Assembly (NCBI RefSeq): GCF_016803135.1
Contig: NZ_JAEVFE010000003.1
Span: 62,001-126,000 of the forward strand
Length of the DNA stretch: 64,000 nucleotides
DNA from: Altererythrobacter sp. C41
Lineage (GTDB): Bacteria; Pseudomonadota; Alphaproteobacteria; Sphingomonadales; Sphingomonadaceae
Reading direction: 5' to 3'
Shown here: piece after piece, positions 1,969-58,161 of the stretch
Position numbering within the stretch: position 1 is the stretch's first letter
Layout: every line of letters begins with the position of its first letter
Position numbers and translations under genes: made by a program
The notes under the pieces: generated by a model
Told to the model about the DNA's origin: nothing
Seen by the model: only the letters and a program-made list of their open reading frames with translations
Databases searched by the model: none

Positions 1969-3143
1969 AGCTGGGGTTCTCCGACATGGAAGAGGCGTTC
2001 CGCCGCGAATGTGCGAGCTGGCTCGACGAGCAGATGGCCGGCGAGTTCGCCGACATCCGCGGGATCGCCAATCTCGTCGACAAGCCCGAGCGCCGCAAGG
2101 CGTGGGAGCGGCGGCTGGCCGAGCATCGCTATTCGTGCATCGGCTGGCCGATCGCCTGGGGCGGGCGCGACGCCACGCTCAACGAGCAGGTCATCTTCGC
2201 CGAGGAATACGCGCGTGCCGGGGCGCCGAACCGGCTCAACCACATGGGCGTCGAGCTGCTCGGGCCGACGCTGCTCGCGCTCGGCAGTTCCGAGCAGAAG
2301 GCGCGGTTCCTGCCGGCGATCGCCGAGGGCACGGCGATCTGGTGCCAGGGCTATTCCGAACCGGGCGCCGGCTCCGACCTCGCGGCCATTCGCACCCGCG
2401 CGCGGCGCGACGGCGACGAATGGGTGATCGAGGGGCAGAAGATCTGGACCAGTCTCGCCCAGTTCGCCGACATGATCTTCGTGCTCGCGCGGACCGAGGA
2501 TGGGACCAGTGGGCGCGAGGGGCTGAGCTTCCTGCTCGTCGACCTCGACCAGCCCGGCATCGCAATCCGCCCGATCCGCCAGATCAACGGCGAGGCCGAG
2601 TTCAACGAGGTGTTCTTCGACGGCGCGCGCTGCCCGGTCGAGAACATGGTCGGCGCCGAGGGGGAGGGGTGGACGGTCTCGACCACGCTGCTCTCGTTCG
2701 AGCGGGGCATCTCGACCCTCGGCCAGCAGATGCAGTTCCGCAACGAGCTCGACGCGGTGATCGCCGCGGCCAGGCGCAACGGCAAGGCGGCCGACCCGGT
2801 GTTCCGCCAGCGGCTCGCGGAAGCCGAGATCGGCCTGCGGCTGATGCGCTACGGCGCGCTTCGCATGCTGGCGGACGGAAAGGGCGGCGCGCTCGCGGGC
2901 GCGGCGCTGACCTACAAGATCCAGTGGGCGAGCTGGCGCCGGGCGCTGGGCGAGCTGGCGATGGACGTGCTCGGGCAGGAGGGCGAGGTCGCGCCCGTCG
3001 ATGCCGAGGCATGGCCGCTGCTCACCAATCTCTATCTCTATTCGCGCGCCGACACGATCTACGGCGGCACCAACCAGATCCAGCGCAACCTGATCGCCGA
3101 GCGCGGGCTCGGCCTGCCGCGCGAGCCGAGAGGAAACGCATGA
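1965..3143 (+). CDS. Acyl-CoA dehydrogenase, FadE30-like
   Basis: A 392-residue acyl-CoA dehydrogenase translated from an ATG overlapping the upstream stop. FAD-contacting motifs are visible: WCQGYSEPGAGSDLA, then WTSLAQFADMIFVLARTE, and RADTIYGGTNQIQRN near the C-terminus. The position that is Glu in medium-chain enzymes (YEGT) is Gly here (YGGT), so a catalytic base elsewhere or in the partner subunit is expected. The flanking IpdF-like SDR and FadD3-like ligase match the neighbours of FadE30 in the mycobacterial steroid C/D-ring genes, where FadE30 acts on 5-OH-HIC-CoA. That specific substrate is inference from synteny and overall resemblance; nothing here proves it. Confidence 0.85.
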   Translation: MKLGFSDMEEAFRRECASWLDEQMAGEFADIRGIANLVDKPERRKAWERRLAEHRYSCIGWPIAWGGRDATLNEQVIFAEEYARAGAPNRLNHMGVELLGPTLLALGSSEQKARFLPAIAEGTAIWCQGYSEPGAGSDLAAIRTRARRDGDEWVIEGQKIWTSLAQFADMIFVLARTEDGTSGREGLSFLLVDLDQPGIAIRPIRQINGEAEFNEVFFDGARCPVENMVGAEGEGWTVSTTLLSFERGISTLGQQMQFRNELDAVIAAARRNGKAADPVFRQRLAEAEIGLRLMRYGALRMLADGKGGALAGAALTYKIQWASWRRALGELAMDVLGQEGEVAPVDAEAWPLLTNLYLYSRADTIYGGTNQIQRNLIAERGLGLPREPRGNA

Positions 3144-3922
3144 GCCTGACGCCGACCTATCCGCCCGGGCGCAACCTGCTTGCCGGAAAGACGGTGCTCG
3201 TCACCGCGGCCGCGGGAACGGGGATCGGCTATGCGGTCGCGAAACGCGCGGTCGAGGAAGGCGCGCGGGTCTTGATCAGCGACTGGCACGAGCGGCGCCT
3301 GGGCGAAGCGGCGGCGCGGATCGCCGAGGAGACGGGAAGCGAGCGGCCGGCGACGTTCGTCTGCGACGTGACCGATCAGGCGCAAGTCGACGCGCTGCGC
3401 GATGCGGCCGAGGCCGAGCTCGGCGGTCTCGACGTTCTCATCAACAACGCGGGCCTCGGCGGAGAGACCGCCGTCGTCGACATGACCGACGACGAGTGGC
3501 ACCGCGTGCTCGACGTCACGCTCAACTCGGTCTTCCGCATGACGCGCGCGTTTCTCCCCGGAATGTATGCGCGCAAGGCGGGGGCGATCGTCAACAACGC
3601 CTCGGTCCTCGGCTGGCGGGCGCAGAAGGGGCAGGCGCACTACGCGGCGGCGAAGGCGGGGGTCATGGCCTTCACCCGCTGCTCCGCGCTCGAGGCGGCG
3701 GAGCACGGCGTGCGGATCAACGCCGTCGCGCCCTCGATCGCGATGCACGCCTTCCTCGCCAAAGTGACCAGCGACGAATTGCTCGCCGAACTGTCCGCGC
3801 GCGAGGCTTTCGGGCGCCCGGCAGAAGTGTGGGAAGTCGCCAACGTCATGCTGTTCCTCGCCTCCGACCTCGCCAGCTACATGACGGGCGAGGTTGTCCC
3901 CGTGTCGAGCCAGCACGCATGA
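3140..3922 (+). CDS. SDR family oxidoreductase, IpdF-like
   Basis: A 260-residue SDR. Its glycine motif is the unusual VTAAAGTGIG (residues 21-30), followed by SDWHERR, NNAG at 102-105, and the catalytic Ser155, Tyr168 and Lys172 in NNASVLGWRAQ...HYAAAK. This combination is characteristic of IpdF, the dehydrogenase that oxidises the 5-hydroxyl of the steroid-derived indane propionyl-CoA intermediate. It overlaps the upstream dehydrogenase and the downstream MaoC gene by ATGA, giving an unbroken translationally coupled series. IpdF-like identity is recognised from memory of the family; activity on a steroid fragment in this organism is inferred. Confidence 0.85.
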   Translation: MSLTPTYPPGRNLLAGKTVLVTAAAGTGIGYAVAKRAVEEGARVLISDWHERRLGEAAARIAEETGSERPATFVCDVTDQAQVDALRDAAEAELGGLDVLINNAGLGGETAVVDMTDDEWHRVLDVTLNSVFRMTRAFLPGMYARKAGAIVNNASVLGWRAQKGQAHYAAAKAGVMAFTRCSALEAAEHGVRINAVAPSIAMHAFLAKVTSDELLAELSAREAFGRPAEVWEVANVMLFLASDLASYMTGEVVPVSSQHA

Positions 3923-33077: not shown

Positions 33078-33821
33078 CTAGCGGTCGTGCAGGGTGCGCA
33101 GCGCGAGCTCGCCGGTGCCGTAGAGATAGGAACCGTCGAATTCGCCCAGCCGCCGGATCAGCGCTTCGTCGAGGATCTCGATCCTGCCTTCGCCGCACGG
33201 CCGCAGCGCCCCGCGTTCGCGCAGCGTGCGGAAGCTGCGGTTGGCATGGACCGGCGTTATGCCGCATGCTTCCGCATAGTCGCGCTGCAGCAGCGGTATC
33301 GGCAGCACCCTGCCGTCGTAGAGCTCGACCAGGCGCAGTCGTTCGATCAGCTCCGCAATCAGATGTGCGATGCGCCCTTCGGCGTTGAGTCTGCCAAGTC
33401 CGAAGATCCACTCGCGGTGCATGGCCGCATCGAGCAGGGTGGAGAACCAGAGGGCCCGGCCGAGGTGCGGATAGGCGTCGATCAGTTCGGTAATCTTGCG
33501 GTGCGAGATCTGCGCAAGTGTCGCGCGAGTCAACGAGCCGACGTCGTGATCGAGACGCTTCATCGCATAGCCGTGCAGATCGACGAAATCGCCGGGAATG
33601 TGCACCGCCACCAGTTGCCGCTCTCCGCGCCGGTCGTCGATGTGCCGCAGCATCGTGCCTTCGACCAGGTAATAGCTGTGCTCGATCAGCTTGCCGCGCT
33701 CCACCAGCGTCGTGCGGGGGCGGATTTCGATCGTCCTGGCGACCGCGTTCTCAAGCGCACTCCGCTCTTCCTCGTTGAGGTCGTGGCGAAGACGTCCCTT
33801 GAGAAACAGTGCGGTAAGCAA
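33078..33821 (-). CDS. Crp/Fnr-family regulator
   Basis: A 247-residue regulator with an N-terminal cyclic-nucleotide-like beta roll (about 15-120, PGDFVDLHGYAMKRLDHDVGSL), dimer helix and a C-terminal HTH at about 170-215 (LLQRDYAEACGITPVHANRSFRTLRERGAL). No N-terminal cysteine cluster is present, so it is not an FNR-type iron-sulfur sensor. The start is a TTG with AGGAGGGG ahead. It is a close paralog of the gene at 57394-58161, sharing the PGDFVDLH and LDHDV segments and the LWFSTLLDAA stretch. Family members of this type respond to stress or nutrient signals in sphingomonads. Confidence 0.88.
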   Translation of the reverse strand: MLTALFLKGRLRHDLNEEERSALENAVARTIEIRPRTTLVERGKLIEHSYYLVEGTMLRHIDDRRGERQLVAVHIPGDFVDLHGYAMKRLDHDVGSLTRATLAQISHRKITELIDAYPHLGRALWFSTLLDAAMHREWIFGLGRLNAEGRIAHLIAELIERLRLVELYDGRVLPIPLLQRDYAEACGITPVHANRSFRTLRERGALRPCGEGRIEILDEALIRRLGEFDGSYLYGTGELALRTLHDR

Positions 33822-56027: not shown

Positions 56028-57332
56028 TCAGTCCTCGAACGGGCGGTTGCCGACGATCGACAGGCCGTAGCCTTCGAGCGCCACCAGCGAGTGGTGCGAG
56101 TTGGTCAGCAGTTCCATGTCGTGCACGCCCAGTTCGGCGAGGATCTGCGCACCTACACCGTAGTCGCGGAACTCCTCGATATCCTGCTCGATCGGCTCGC
56201 CGCGATGAAGGCGGGTGATCGCGGTCATGTCCTTGCCCGCCGACTTGTTGATCACCACGATCACGCCGGCGCCTTCCGCGGCGATGGCCTCCATCGATTT
56301 CTGCAGGAGACCGCCGCGCGGCGAATCCTCGCCGAAGATGTCGGCGAAGGGATTGAGCAGGTGCATGCGCACGAGCGTCGGCTTGCTCGGATCGATCCGG
56401 CCGAGGACGAGCGCCAGCGTATCGTCGCCGGTCGCCTTGTTGTGGAAGCCGATCGCGTTCCACGCGCCGCCGAAGCGACTGGCGAAACGGGTCTCGGCGC
56501 GCTTCTCGACCATATGGTCGTGCTTGCGGCGATAGGCGATGAGGTCGCGGATCGTGCCGACCTTCAGGTCATGACGGCGGGCGAAGGCGATCAGGTCGTC
56601 GAGCCGCGCCATCGTGCCGTCGTCGTTCATGATCTCGCAGATCACGCCCGACGGATTGAGCCCGGCGAGGCGCGAGATATCGACCGCCGCCTCGGTATGT
56701 CCGGCGCGGACCAGCACGCCGCCGTCGCGCGCGACGAGGGGGAAGACATGACCCGGCGTCACGATATCGTCCGGCCCGTGCGCCGCGTCGATCGCAACGC
56801 TGATCGTGCGCGCGCGGTCGGCCGCGCTGATCCCGGTGGTGACGCCCTCGCGCGCCTCGATCGAGGTGGTGAACGCCGTTTCGTGCCGGGTCCGGTTATT
56901 GCGGCTCATCGGTTCCAGGCGGAGCTGGTCGCAGCGCGCCTTGGTCATCGACAGGCAGACGAGGCCCTTGCCGTGAGTCGCCATGAAGTTGATCGCGGCC
57001 GGGGTGGCCATCTGGGCGGGGATCACCAGATCGCCCTCGTTCTCCCGATCCTCGTCGTCCACCAGCACGAACATGCGCCCGTTGCGGGCCTCGTCGATGA
57101 TCTCCTCGATAGTGGCGAGCACCGGGCGATCGTCGTTCGCCTTGAGGAACGCGGCCAGCTTCTCCAGCGTGTCGGCGGTCGGATTCCAGCCCTCGTCGCT
57201 GCAATCGCGCAAGGTGTTGGCGTGCAGGCCCGCGGCGCGCGCGATGCCGGCGCGCGACATCTTGCCGGCATCGACAAGGGACTGGATCTTCTGCTTGATG
57301 GCGGCTGTGCTGAGTTCGGTCATGCGCTGCAT
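56028..57332 (-). CDS. ribB: RibB (DHBP synthase) with N-terminal helix-turn-helix and degenerate RibA-like C-terminus
   Basis: A 434-residue fusion. Residues about 12-66 form an XRE-like helix-turn-helix (SRAGIARAAGLHANTLRDC...TADTLEKLAAFLK). Residues about 70-275 are 3,4-dihydroxy-2-butanone-4-phosphate synthase, with FVLVDDEDRENEGDLVIPAQ (metal/substrate acids) and RAGHTEAAVDISRLAG. Residues about 285-434 resemble GTP cyclohydrolase II but lack its three zinc cysteines (LNPFADIFGEDSPRGG replaces the Cys-rich loop). So only the RibB half should be catalytic. It makes DHBP from ribulose-5-phosphate for riboflavin. A palindromic operator lies just upstream. ATG 57323 is an alternative start. 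Confidence 0.9.
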   Translation of the reverse strand: MQRMTELSTAAIKQKIQSLVDAGKMSRAGIARAAGLHANTLRDCSDEGWNPTADTLEKLAAFLKANDDRPVLATIEEIIDEARNGRMFVLVDDEDRENEGDLVIPAQMATPAAINFMATHGKGLVCLSMTKARCDQLRLEPMSRNNRTRHETAFTTSIEAREGVTTGISAADRARTISVAIDAAHGPDDIVTPGHVFPLVARDGGVLVRAGHTEAAVDISRLAGLNPSGVICEIMNDDGTMARLDDLIAFARRHDLKVGTIRDLIAYRRKHDHMVEKRAETRFASRFGGAWNAIGFHNKATGDDTLALVLGRIDPSKPTLVRMHLLNPFADIFGEDSPRGGLLQKSMEAIAAEGAGVIVVINKSAGKDMTAITRLHRGEPIEQDIEEFRDYGVGAQILAELGVHDMELLTNSHHSLVALEGYGLSIVGNRPFED

Positions 57333-57344
57333 TTAAACAGCACC

Positions 57345-57387
57345 ATGTGATTCTGCAATGAGAAATCACATTTTAATGTGATTCTGC
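57345..57387. promoter_or_regulatory. Operator-like repeats upstream of ribB
   Basis: A perfect 20-bp inverted repeat AATCACATTTTAATGTGATT lies at 57364-57383. A third half-site ATGTGATTCTGC at 57345-57356 repeats 57376-57387 exactly, 31 bases apart. It ends 13 bases before the ribB start, within the 61-base gap to the Crp/Fnr gene, and is much more AT-rich than its surroundings. It is probably bound by a dimeric or tetrameric regulator, which may be the helix-turn-helix of RibB itself. No FMN riboswitch fits in this gap. Confidence 0.7.
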
Positions 57388-57393
57388 CCGATT

Positions 57394-58161
57394 TCAGTCC
57401 TGCGTATTCAGCAAACTGCCAATGTGCAGCGCCCCAGGACCATAGAGATAGGCGGGGTCGAAGTCACCGTGTTCCTCGAGCTTGGCGCGATCGGTGAAAG
57501 TCAGCGTCCCGCGCCGGAAGTCCGCCACCCCGAGCCGGCGCAGTTCCCCGATCGCGCGGTTCATGTGCACGGCGGTCGTCCCGCTCATGTCCGCGAGATC
57601 GGTCTGGGTCAGCGGAGAGCGAAAGCCGTCCGTTCGTGAAAGGCCGACCATATCGAGGCGATGCCAGATCTCCGCCAGCAGATGCGCGACCCGGCGGTTG
57701 GCCTTGAGCTGCTCGAGCTTGAGCAGCCATTGCCGGTGCAGGGCCGCGTCCAGCAGGGTCGAGAACCAGAGCACCCGTGACAGATGCGGTTCGGTCGTCA
57801 TGAGTTCGATGAGACGCTCGTGCATCACCGTGCCGACTTTGGCCGGGCCGAGGGTCACCACGTCGTGATCGAGCCGCTTCAGCGCGAACGCGTGCAGGTC
57901 GACGAAATCGCCCGGCACCTGCATCCCCACGATATAACGCCGGTCGTTCTCATGAATGGCGCGCACGATGAAGCCTTCGATCAACATCGTGCTGCGCTCG
58001 CACACCTCGCCGCGAGCGAGGATGCGGTGCCCGTCATCGTATTCGCGCACGTCGGTGATGCAGCTTTCGAGAATGTCCTTCTCACGGTCCGACATCGCCT
58101 GACGAAGGCGCCCCATCAGGAATCGACCGGTCAACGGATAGCGCTCGAGTTCGCCTTTCAT
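57394..58161 (-). CDS. Crp/Fnr-family regulator
   Basis: A 255-residue regulator with beta-roll (about 20-130) and a C-terminal HTH at about 185-220 (LTQTDLADMSGTTAVHMNRAIGELRRLGVADFRRGTLTF). It is a clear paralog of the 33.1-kb gene (PGDFVDLHAFALKRLDHDV, LWFSTLLDAALHRQWLLKLEQL). No cysteine cluster is seen. It lies 61 bases upstream of ribB on the same strand and is divergent from the PhoB-like regulator across a 115-base gap. Confidence 0.88.
   Translation of the reverse strand: MKGELERYPLTGRFLMGRLRQAMSDREKDILESCITDVREYDDGHRILARGEVCERSTMLIEGFIVRAIHENDRRYIVGMQVPGDFVDLHAFALKRLDHDVVTLGPAKVGTVMHERLIELMTTEPHLSRVLWFSTLLDAALHRQWLLKLEQLKANRRVAHLLAEIWHRLDMVGLSRTDGFRSPLTQTDLADMSGTTAVHMNRAIGELRRLGVADFRRGTLTFTDRAKLEEHGDFDPAYLYGPGALHIGSLLNTQD

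Follow-up and report, generated by a model that had tools for sequence, protein, structure and literature searches.

Whether an enzyme of riboflavin synthesis can repress its own gene is the question raised by one open reading frame in the 64,000-nucleotide stretch of DNA that was analysed (hereafter the window). The original prediction proposed that this DHBP synthase (RibB) starts with an XRE-like helix-turn-helix (HTH), that it would bind a palindrome just upstream of its gene in response to substrate, FMN or flavin level, and that this self-regulation would stand in for an FMN riboswitch. The proposed fusion is borne out by Pfam, a structural model and homology, which together divide the reading frame into a Cro/C1-like HTH, RibB and a cyclohydrolase-like domain:

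56028-57332, minus strand: open reading frame of the HTH-RibB-RibX fusion, 434 aa from the first ATG at 57332
56028-57323, minus strand: the same fusion from the conserved ATG, 431 aa, beginning MTEL
57132-57308, minus strand: Cro/C1-like HTH domain, spanning roughly residues 6-64 as numbered in the 431-aa form, from the AlphaFold model, Foldseek and dN/dS
57207-57227, minus strand: putative recognition segment LHANTLR, residues 33-39, named by alignment and not modelled as a full helix
56532-57107, minus strand: DHBP synthase (RibB) domain, from PF00926 and PDB relatives
56043-56504, minus strand: GTP cyclohydrolase II-like domain of the RibX type, without the cysteines present in RibBA 4i14

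The second ATG (57323) is common to relatives, so the natural HTH-RibBX product probably has 431 aa. Pfam finds both enzyme domains in the window reading frame (DHBP_synthase PF00926, E=1.9e-85; GTP_cyclohydro2 PF00925, E=1.6e-33), and the motifs DDEDRENEGD, PGHVFPL and GHTEA of the RibB domain are invariant in 48 relatives and resemble those of the PDB enzymes closely. Judged by these motifs, the RibB catalytic domain is intact. The cysteines that the cyclohydrolase-like domain lacks are zinc ligands of GTP cyclohydrolase II, and by alignment with 4i14 the window fusion is of the RibBX type. At the N-terminus, all Pfam matches of Cro/C1 HTH models to the full reading frame are below the cut-off, as is HTH_31 (E=0.0054) when the HTH domain is queried alone. 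An AlphaFold model of this domain has a mean pLDDT of 83 with helices at residues 6-18, 24-31 and 50-64; no helix is assigned to the recognition segment, of which residues 35-38 are helical in a full-length model that is poor overall (pLDDT 67, residues 136-209 below 50) and was left unused for the enzyme part. Foldseek matches the HTH model to XRE-type HTHs such as HipB, SinR and C.AhdI with probabilities mostly above 0.9 and E-values from 0.2 up; regulators of the XRE type make up most of the PDB matches, several having been solved on DNA, and the top TM-score (0.71/0.75) goes to the N-terminal domain of MuB. Within the recognition segment, L33, H34, N36, L38 and R39 are invariant among 48 aligned HTH-RibBs (protein alignment A6, full proteins above 400 aa only). 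Together with homology to phage Cro-like genes, the model and the fold comparison give us moderate confidence that the RibB polypeptide contains a DNA-binding domain.

Upstream of the gene, the following elements are found:

57364-57383, unstranded: strong (start-distal) putative operator, an inverted repeat with the core ATCACAT-N4-ATGTGAT at 57365-57382
57334-57351, unstranded: decayed start-proximal operator copy ATCACATGGTGCTGTTTA, 31 bp from the strong copy
57330-57358, minus strand: candidate promoter, picked by eye, with -35-like TTGCAG (57353-57358) and -10-like TTTAAA/TAAATG (57330-57337)
57370-57397, minus strand: alternative promoter-like site CTGAAA-16-TAAAAT, a consensus scan match only, with its -10 inside the strong operator
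57394-58161, minus strand: Crp/Fnr-type regulator gene, the tandem upstream neighbour 61 bp from the reading frame and outside the module

The strong copy reads AATCACATT-TT-AATGTGATT, with 9-bp arms around a non-complementary 2-bp centre, so that its first description as a perfect 20-bp palindrome is right about the inverted repeat and slightly overstated about its perfection. A third half-site had been noticed as well; it is present at 57345-57352 but belongs to the decayed second copy instead of standing alone. This decayed copy sits between the -35-like and -10-like elements of the candidate promoter, from which the ribB transcript would start a few bases from the ATG and be near-leaderless. 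Whichever of the two putative promoters serves ribB in the window, an operator overlaps it. All three occurrences of ATGTGATT in the window fall in the 61-bp gap (0.68 expected; at least three in 6 of 100 shuffles). With up to three mismatches, the 20-mer occurs once in the window (0.06 expected; at least once in 5 of 100 shuffles) and has a single match in the 3.2-Mb genome. The window also holds a second Crp/Fnr-type homologue (33090-33818, minus strand; 42% identical to the neighbouring gene). Elsewhere, the same genome (G000) encodes a second RibBX-like protein without an HTH (L032 2981-4102, minus strand; C12:25016-26116; 57% identical) in a catabolic-looking cluster that includes, as judged by eye, an IclR-type regulator, ring-hydroxylating dioxygenase-like subunits and an acyl-CoA synthetase-like protein.

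A sample of 99 genomes from 94 genera of the window's family, the Sphingomonadaceae, with genera such as Erythrobacter and Novosphingobium, has RibB in 95 genomes, of which 73 have HTH-RibB and 22 only HTH-less RibB. Each upstream region was scored by its best fit to ATCACAT-N4-ATGTGAT (14 scored positions) in the stretch that begins 150 bp upstream and runs to where the HTH match starts, all 73 loci being located by coordinates. Every HTH-RibB scores at least 10 and all but one at least 11 (10 in one, 11 in 15, 12 in 18, 13 in 20 and 14 in 19), with row G094 at just 10 and loci L005 (G020) and L019 (G009), which both carry the HTH, at 13 and 11; the reversed pattern reaches at most 9 in the same stretches, and 11 is reached by 6 of 1460 shuffles. 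Among 30 regions of 381 bp around HTH-less RibB starts (22 main copies and 8 paralogues), the highest score is 10, in a single region; the HTH-less paralogue of G000 and larger HTH-less loci, the genomes of four of which are included as L239-L242, stand outside this control. The same holds among the best 80 of 582 loci in named genomes, of which 78 were parsed (L111 and L133 were left out, the motif being unmatched): the HTH is fused to RibB and the score is at least 10 in all 78 (at least 12 in 70), and the reversed control reaches 10 in three. In a set of 30 loci from 40 related genomes, 19 with and 11 without the HTH, the palindrome, exact or nearly so, is visible by eye upstream of the 19. 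The conservation upstream of HTH-RibB genes on which the idea of self-regulation depended is thus found in both large samples.

The arrangement of the sites is similarly regular. In 62 of the 78 named loci (again from the best 80 of 582), 10-14 bp separate the end of the best site from the ATG. In the start-proximal site, conservation is 93-100% at columns 2-5 and 12-14 and 56-86% at other arm positions, and the middle two bases are variable; the flanks of the site are mostly below 50%, except for a box rich in T and G and an A immediately 3' of the site, and TTG stands just 5' of it in 44 of 73 loci versus a background of 8%. In 46 of 73 loci a second-best match, often weak (scores 6-11), is present at a distance of 30-33 bp. 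Among genes nearby, ribH is present in 60 of 81 loci, though nowhere in the window; it lies downstream on the same strand in all 21 checked of these 60, within 31 bp in 20. At L011 (G007), HTH-ribB and its operator are found within a ribD-ribE-ribB order (2828-3442 and 1489-2769, both minus strand; genes named by eye), which implies that a rib operon can gain an internal promoter with the module. In 15 of 78 loci (L109, L112, L114, L122 and 11 others; best 80 of 582), a tRNA-Lys(ctt) gene is found no more than 700 bp upstream of where the HTH is encoded. tRNA genes are common phage attachment sites; the recurrent tRNA-Lys(ctt) beside HTH-ribB probably reflects shared ancestry.

How exclusively does the site belong to HTH-RibB? 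With at most one mismatch, 44 of the 99 family genomes carry it, at 49 places in all, versus 2 of 99 genomes for the backward pattern. Most of these places (39 of 49) are just upstream of HTH-RibB and four lie in one prophage (genome G022), which is what a dedicated local regulator would show; the remaining six look like background. A wider regulon was considered and rejected, the site being unique at up to three mismatches in the window genome and found elsewhere in only 6 of 49 places across the family.

The G022 prophage points to the likely source of the domain. The HTH model also matches stand-alone genes, which encode phage proteins of about 60-140 aa. In G022, both RibBs of which lack an HTH, the match is a Cro-like reading frame of 84 aa (68 aa from its likely start) that diverges from an S24-type repressor gene and is directly preceded by two sites 31 bp apart; the surrounding region (L033/L326) contains by profile an integrase, a phrog_4 and S24 repressor, a primase and a terminase. 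A second operator pair, also 31 bp apart, is found about 2.8 kb from the first (L182 1872-1920), and we take the two pairs to resemble the left and right operators of lambda. A relative in G034 (L034) likewise lies in a phage-like region next to a repressor identified by profile as phrog_4/S24. Others are on IMG/VR contigs (one identical to the G042 gene), in a phage-like region of G057 (judged by eye) and in Pseudanabaena phage Pan3; the CI-type repressor neighbours of L177, L178 and L179 were judged by eye only, and the neighbour of L176 has just weak profile matches. By the profile-supported neighbours in G022 and G034, the HTH domain belongs to a family of phage Cro-like proteins encoded beside CI-type repressors.

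Operator geometry is often shared across this family too. An N4 palindrome ends 11-12 bp before the ATG in 8 of 11 near phage relatives scanned; in random 110-bp stretches, an N4 palindrome ending 10-13 bp before the end was found in 54 of 5280. Recognition segments of the form N[TS]LRD occur with the half-site TGTGA (L182, L276 and RibB), DT[TV]LR[HN] with TGCGA (L274, L275, L277 and L034) and NTL[LYN]G with ATATGCT (L178 and L292-L296). Segment and half-site agree in this way for 12 of 13 near phage relatives, in classes that were named after the sites had been seen. The exception, L291, combines an NSLYG segment with TGCGA words. Of four remoter relatives, L278, L279 and L280 are without any half-site word and L282 has one; this comparison does not include duplicates (L175-L177, L179, L281 and L283-L289) or the remote L290, and no gene could be read at the weak matches L188-L191 and L193. 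As far as sequences tell, HTH-RibB and its phage Cro-like relatives thus have operator geometry in common and a half-site that matches the recognition segment. An HTH of the same kind is also fused to the N-terminus of CoaBC, an enzyme of coenzyme A synthesis (PF02441 and PF04127; L324 988-2463 and L325 906-2390, both minus strand; reading frames of about 500 aa). The two genomes belong to another family of the order, in which the fusion is present in 2 of 29 genomes. Neither inspection by eye nor a palindrome scan found a clear operator at HTH-CoaBC, which would be a second capture by a cofactor enzyme.

Is the HTH maintained by selection? Mean dN divided by mean dS, computed from 568 pairs, comes to 0.15 in the HTH, 0.10 in RibB and 0.36 in RibX, the least conserved part; these values are rough since dS is high (mean about 1.1). 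HTH presence requires three gains or losses on a RibB tree of 60 rows, from which L028 was omitted as too short. With just three independent contrasts a sign test cannot reach 0.05, and we therefore base the argument on the conserved sequences, on exclusivity and on the phage match. With too few columns, the HTH tree is poorly resolved and is compatible with one origin of the fusion to RibB as well as with several. In a class-wide sample of 289 genomes, HTH matches below 1e-30 come from three of the four family members only, and eight other genomes have weak matches (best 6.8e-9). An order-wide sample of 147 genomes adds, outside the family, one phage-type gene and the two reading frames of HTH-CoaBC.

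Taken together, we consider it highly probable that HTH-RibBX is an enzyme that represses its own gene through a phage-derived HTH and the upstream inverted repeat. What can be read directly from the genomes is the fusion, the conserved operator, the near-exclusive association of the two, the phage homologues with their matching site geometry, the match between recognition segment and half-site, and the selection on the HTH. Physical binding by HTH-RibBX, binding as a dimer and repression rather than activation are what we infer from these features. RibB enzymes are dimers, and the N-terminal Cro-type HTHs of such a dimer would bind ATCACAT-N4-ATGTGAT over the ribB promoter, the dimer presenting two HTHs to the palindrome. 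The tandem copy about 31-32 bp away, three helical turns, would be bound as well, placing two dimers on one face of the DNA. Rising levels of HTH-RibBX would then block ribB transcription and, where ribH follows, the operator would probably control both genes. With regard to its history, a phage cro-like gene and its promoter-operator would have been joined to ribB, domain and operator probably having been captured together, and the pair would then have been kept in the 73 of 95 RibB-bearing family genomes that have it today.

Other explanations for the palindrome can be weighed against this reading. The Crp/Fnr-type gene lies directly upstream in the window, and this or another regulator could bind the palindrome while the HTH is incidental. 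We regard this as very improbable. A Crp homologue is present in just 10 of 81 loci, including the window, and the site occurs without it, so the site does not belong to that gene and the palindrome does not track it as the original prediction had allowed for; HTH-RibB and a single prophage that carries a Cro-like gene account for 43 of the 49 near-exact sites, which is unlike a global regulon. The CRP consensus is moreover TGTGA-N6-TCACA, with the opposite order of half-sites; a CRP-type site was rejected at the window for this reason, its order being TCACAT-N4-ATGTGA. An inverted repeat within a short 5' region could also form an RNA hairpin or a riboswitch-like leader element, an explanation that we consider extremely improbable: the letters of the site are conserved and not complementarity alone, 2-4 nt would make an unfavourable hairpin loop, and no such site is present in the 30 HTH-less regions. 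A search of the window with Rfam at gathering cut-offs gave no match, in agreement with the prediction that no riboswitch fits in the 61-base gap. As for the HTH replacing the FMN riboswitch, RF00050 was found in none of the 99 family genomes, including the 22 with only HTH-less RibB, by a search with strict filters that scored at most 29 candidates per genome and was positive in 7 of 14 controls; across the class sample (4 of 289 genomes in the family; the same filters and limited candidates), 50 of 289 genomes exceed the cut-off. Since the search found no riboswitch either with or without the HTH, the two do not trade places within the family, and riboswitch replacement is weakly supported, whereas self-regulation as such gains strong support from the comparison.

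A further possibility is that the HTH activates ribB from the distal repeat as an upstream activator site, and the window itself, with its strong distal and decayed proximal copy, would be compatible with that. Cro proteins repress, and in most named loci the best site lies so close to the ATG, with a TTG box 5' of the proximal site in 44 of the 73 family loci, that a bound protein should block polymerase. This position over the promoter argues for repression, and we consider activation unlikely. That HTH and operator no longer have a function and persist as vestiges would fit the decayed proximal copy and those of the 22 HTH-less genomes that may have arisen by loss. It is hard to reconcile with the low dN/dS of the HTH, the invariant recognition residues in 48 proteins and an operator in 73 of 73 loci, and seems extremely improbable to us. 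Ligand-gated feedback, with DNA binding dependent on substrate, product, flavin or a RibX ligand, is of another kind, being an extension of autorepression that does not exclude it. The enzyme-regulators PutA and BirA respond to metabolites and count in its favour, and RibX appears to be kept in HTH-RibBs, 76 of the 78 parsed (best 80 of 582 loci, named genomes) being longer than 400 aa. In PMC10012899, the X domain of a Shewanella RibBX is reported to regulate the RibB domain. RibX is, however, the least conserved part, and RibB with the same C-terminal part also occurs without an HTH; we see such gating as quite possible, if somewhat short of probable. Going one step further, autorepression by HTH-RibBX could be a standing riboflavin feedback switch of most sampled genera, built from a complete lysis-lysogeny part of a phage, the captured Cro-like domain with its promoter-operator, and gated by the state of RibB/RibX, with the same kind of HTH captured again by CoaBC—a scenario that we put forward tentatively and with more doubt than conviction.

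HTH-RibB is undescribed in the literature searched, which was covered by titles and the beginnings of abstracts and included few subscription papers; the accessible portions of PMC13028884 and PMC12542839 hold nothing on it. It is a candidate answer to how riboflavin synthesis is controlled in a family where no FMN riboswitch was found, and a compact natural candidate autorepressor with a defined 18-bp operator. Only a few enzymes are known to regulate their own genes, and HTH-RibB bears on how they arise, the likely source of its HTH and operator still being readable in prophages. The family offers many natural variants together with nearby fusion-less genomes as controls.

The closest idea in the literature searched is RbkR, an archaeal riboflavin kinase described as "bifunctional as gene regulator and enzyme" in PMC8305020. 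It resembles HTH-RibB as a riboflavin-pathway enzyme with an N-terminal HTH but is archaeal and a kinase rather than a DHBP synthase. RibBX proteins, as presented in the accessible part of PMC10012899, join a DHBP synthase to a GTP cyclohydrolase II-like domain that is inactive and from which cysteines are missing; they share both enzyme domains and the missing cysteines with the window protein but differ from it in that this part of the paper mentions neither an HTH nor an operator. The phage Cro-like repressors encoded beside CI/S24 have the HTH family and an N4 palindrome, in many cases 11-12 bp before the ATG, in common with HTH-RibB, including, in G022, tandem sites about 31 bp apart; they are stand-alone proteins of about 60-140 aa, whereas the HTH of the window is part of a metabolic enzyme. 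The trigger enzymes PutA and BirA regulate their own genes by DNA binding, with known ligands and with DNA-binding folds different from that of HTH-RibB. Compared to these, the DNA-binding part of HTH-RibB appears to be phage-derived, and we propose that it is an autogenous enzyme-regulator whose DNA-binding domain, and probably its operator too, came from a phage switch.
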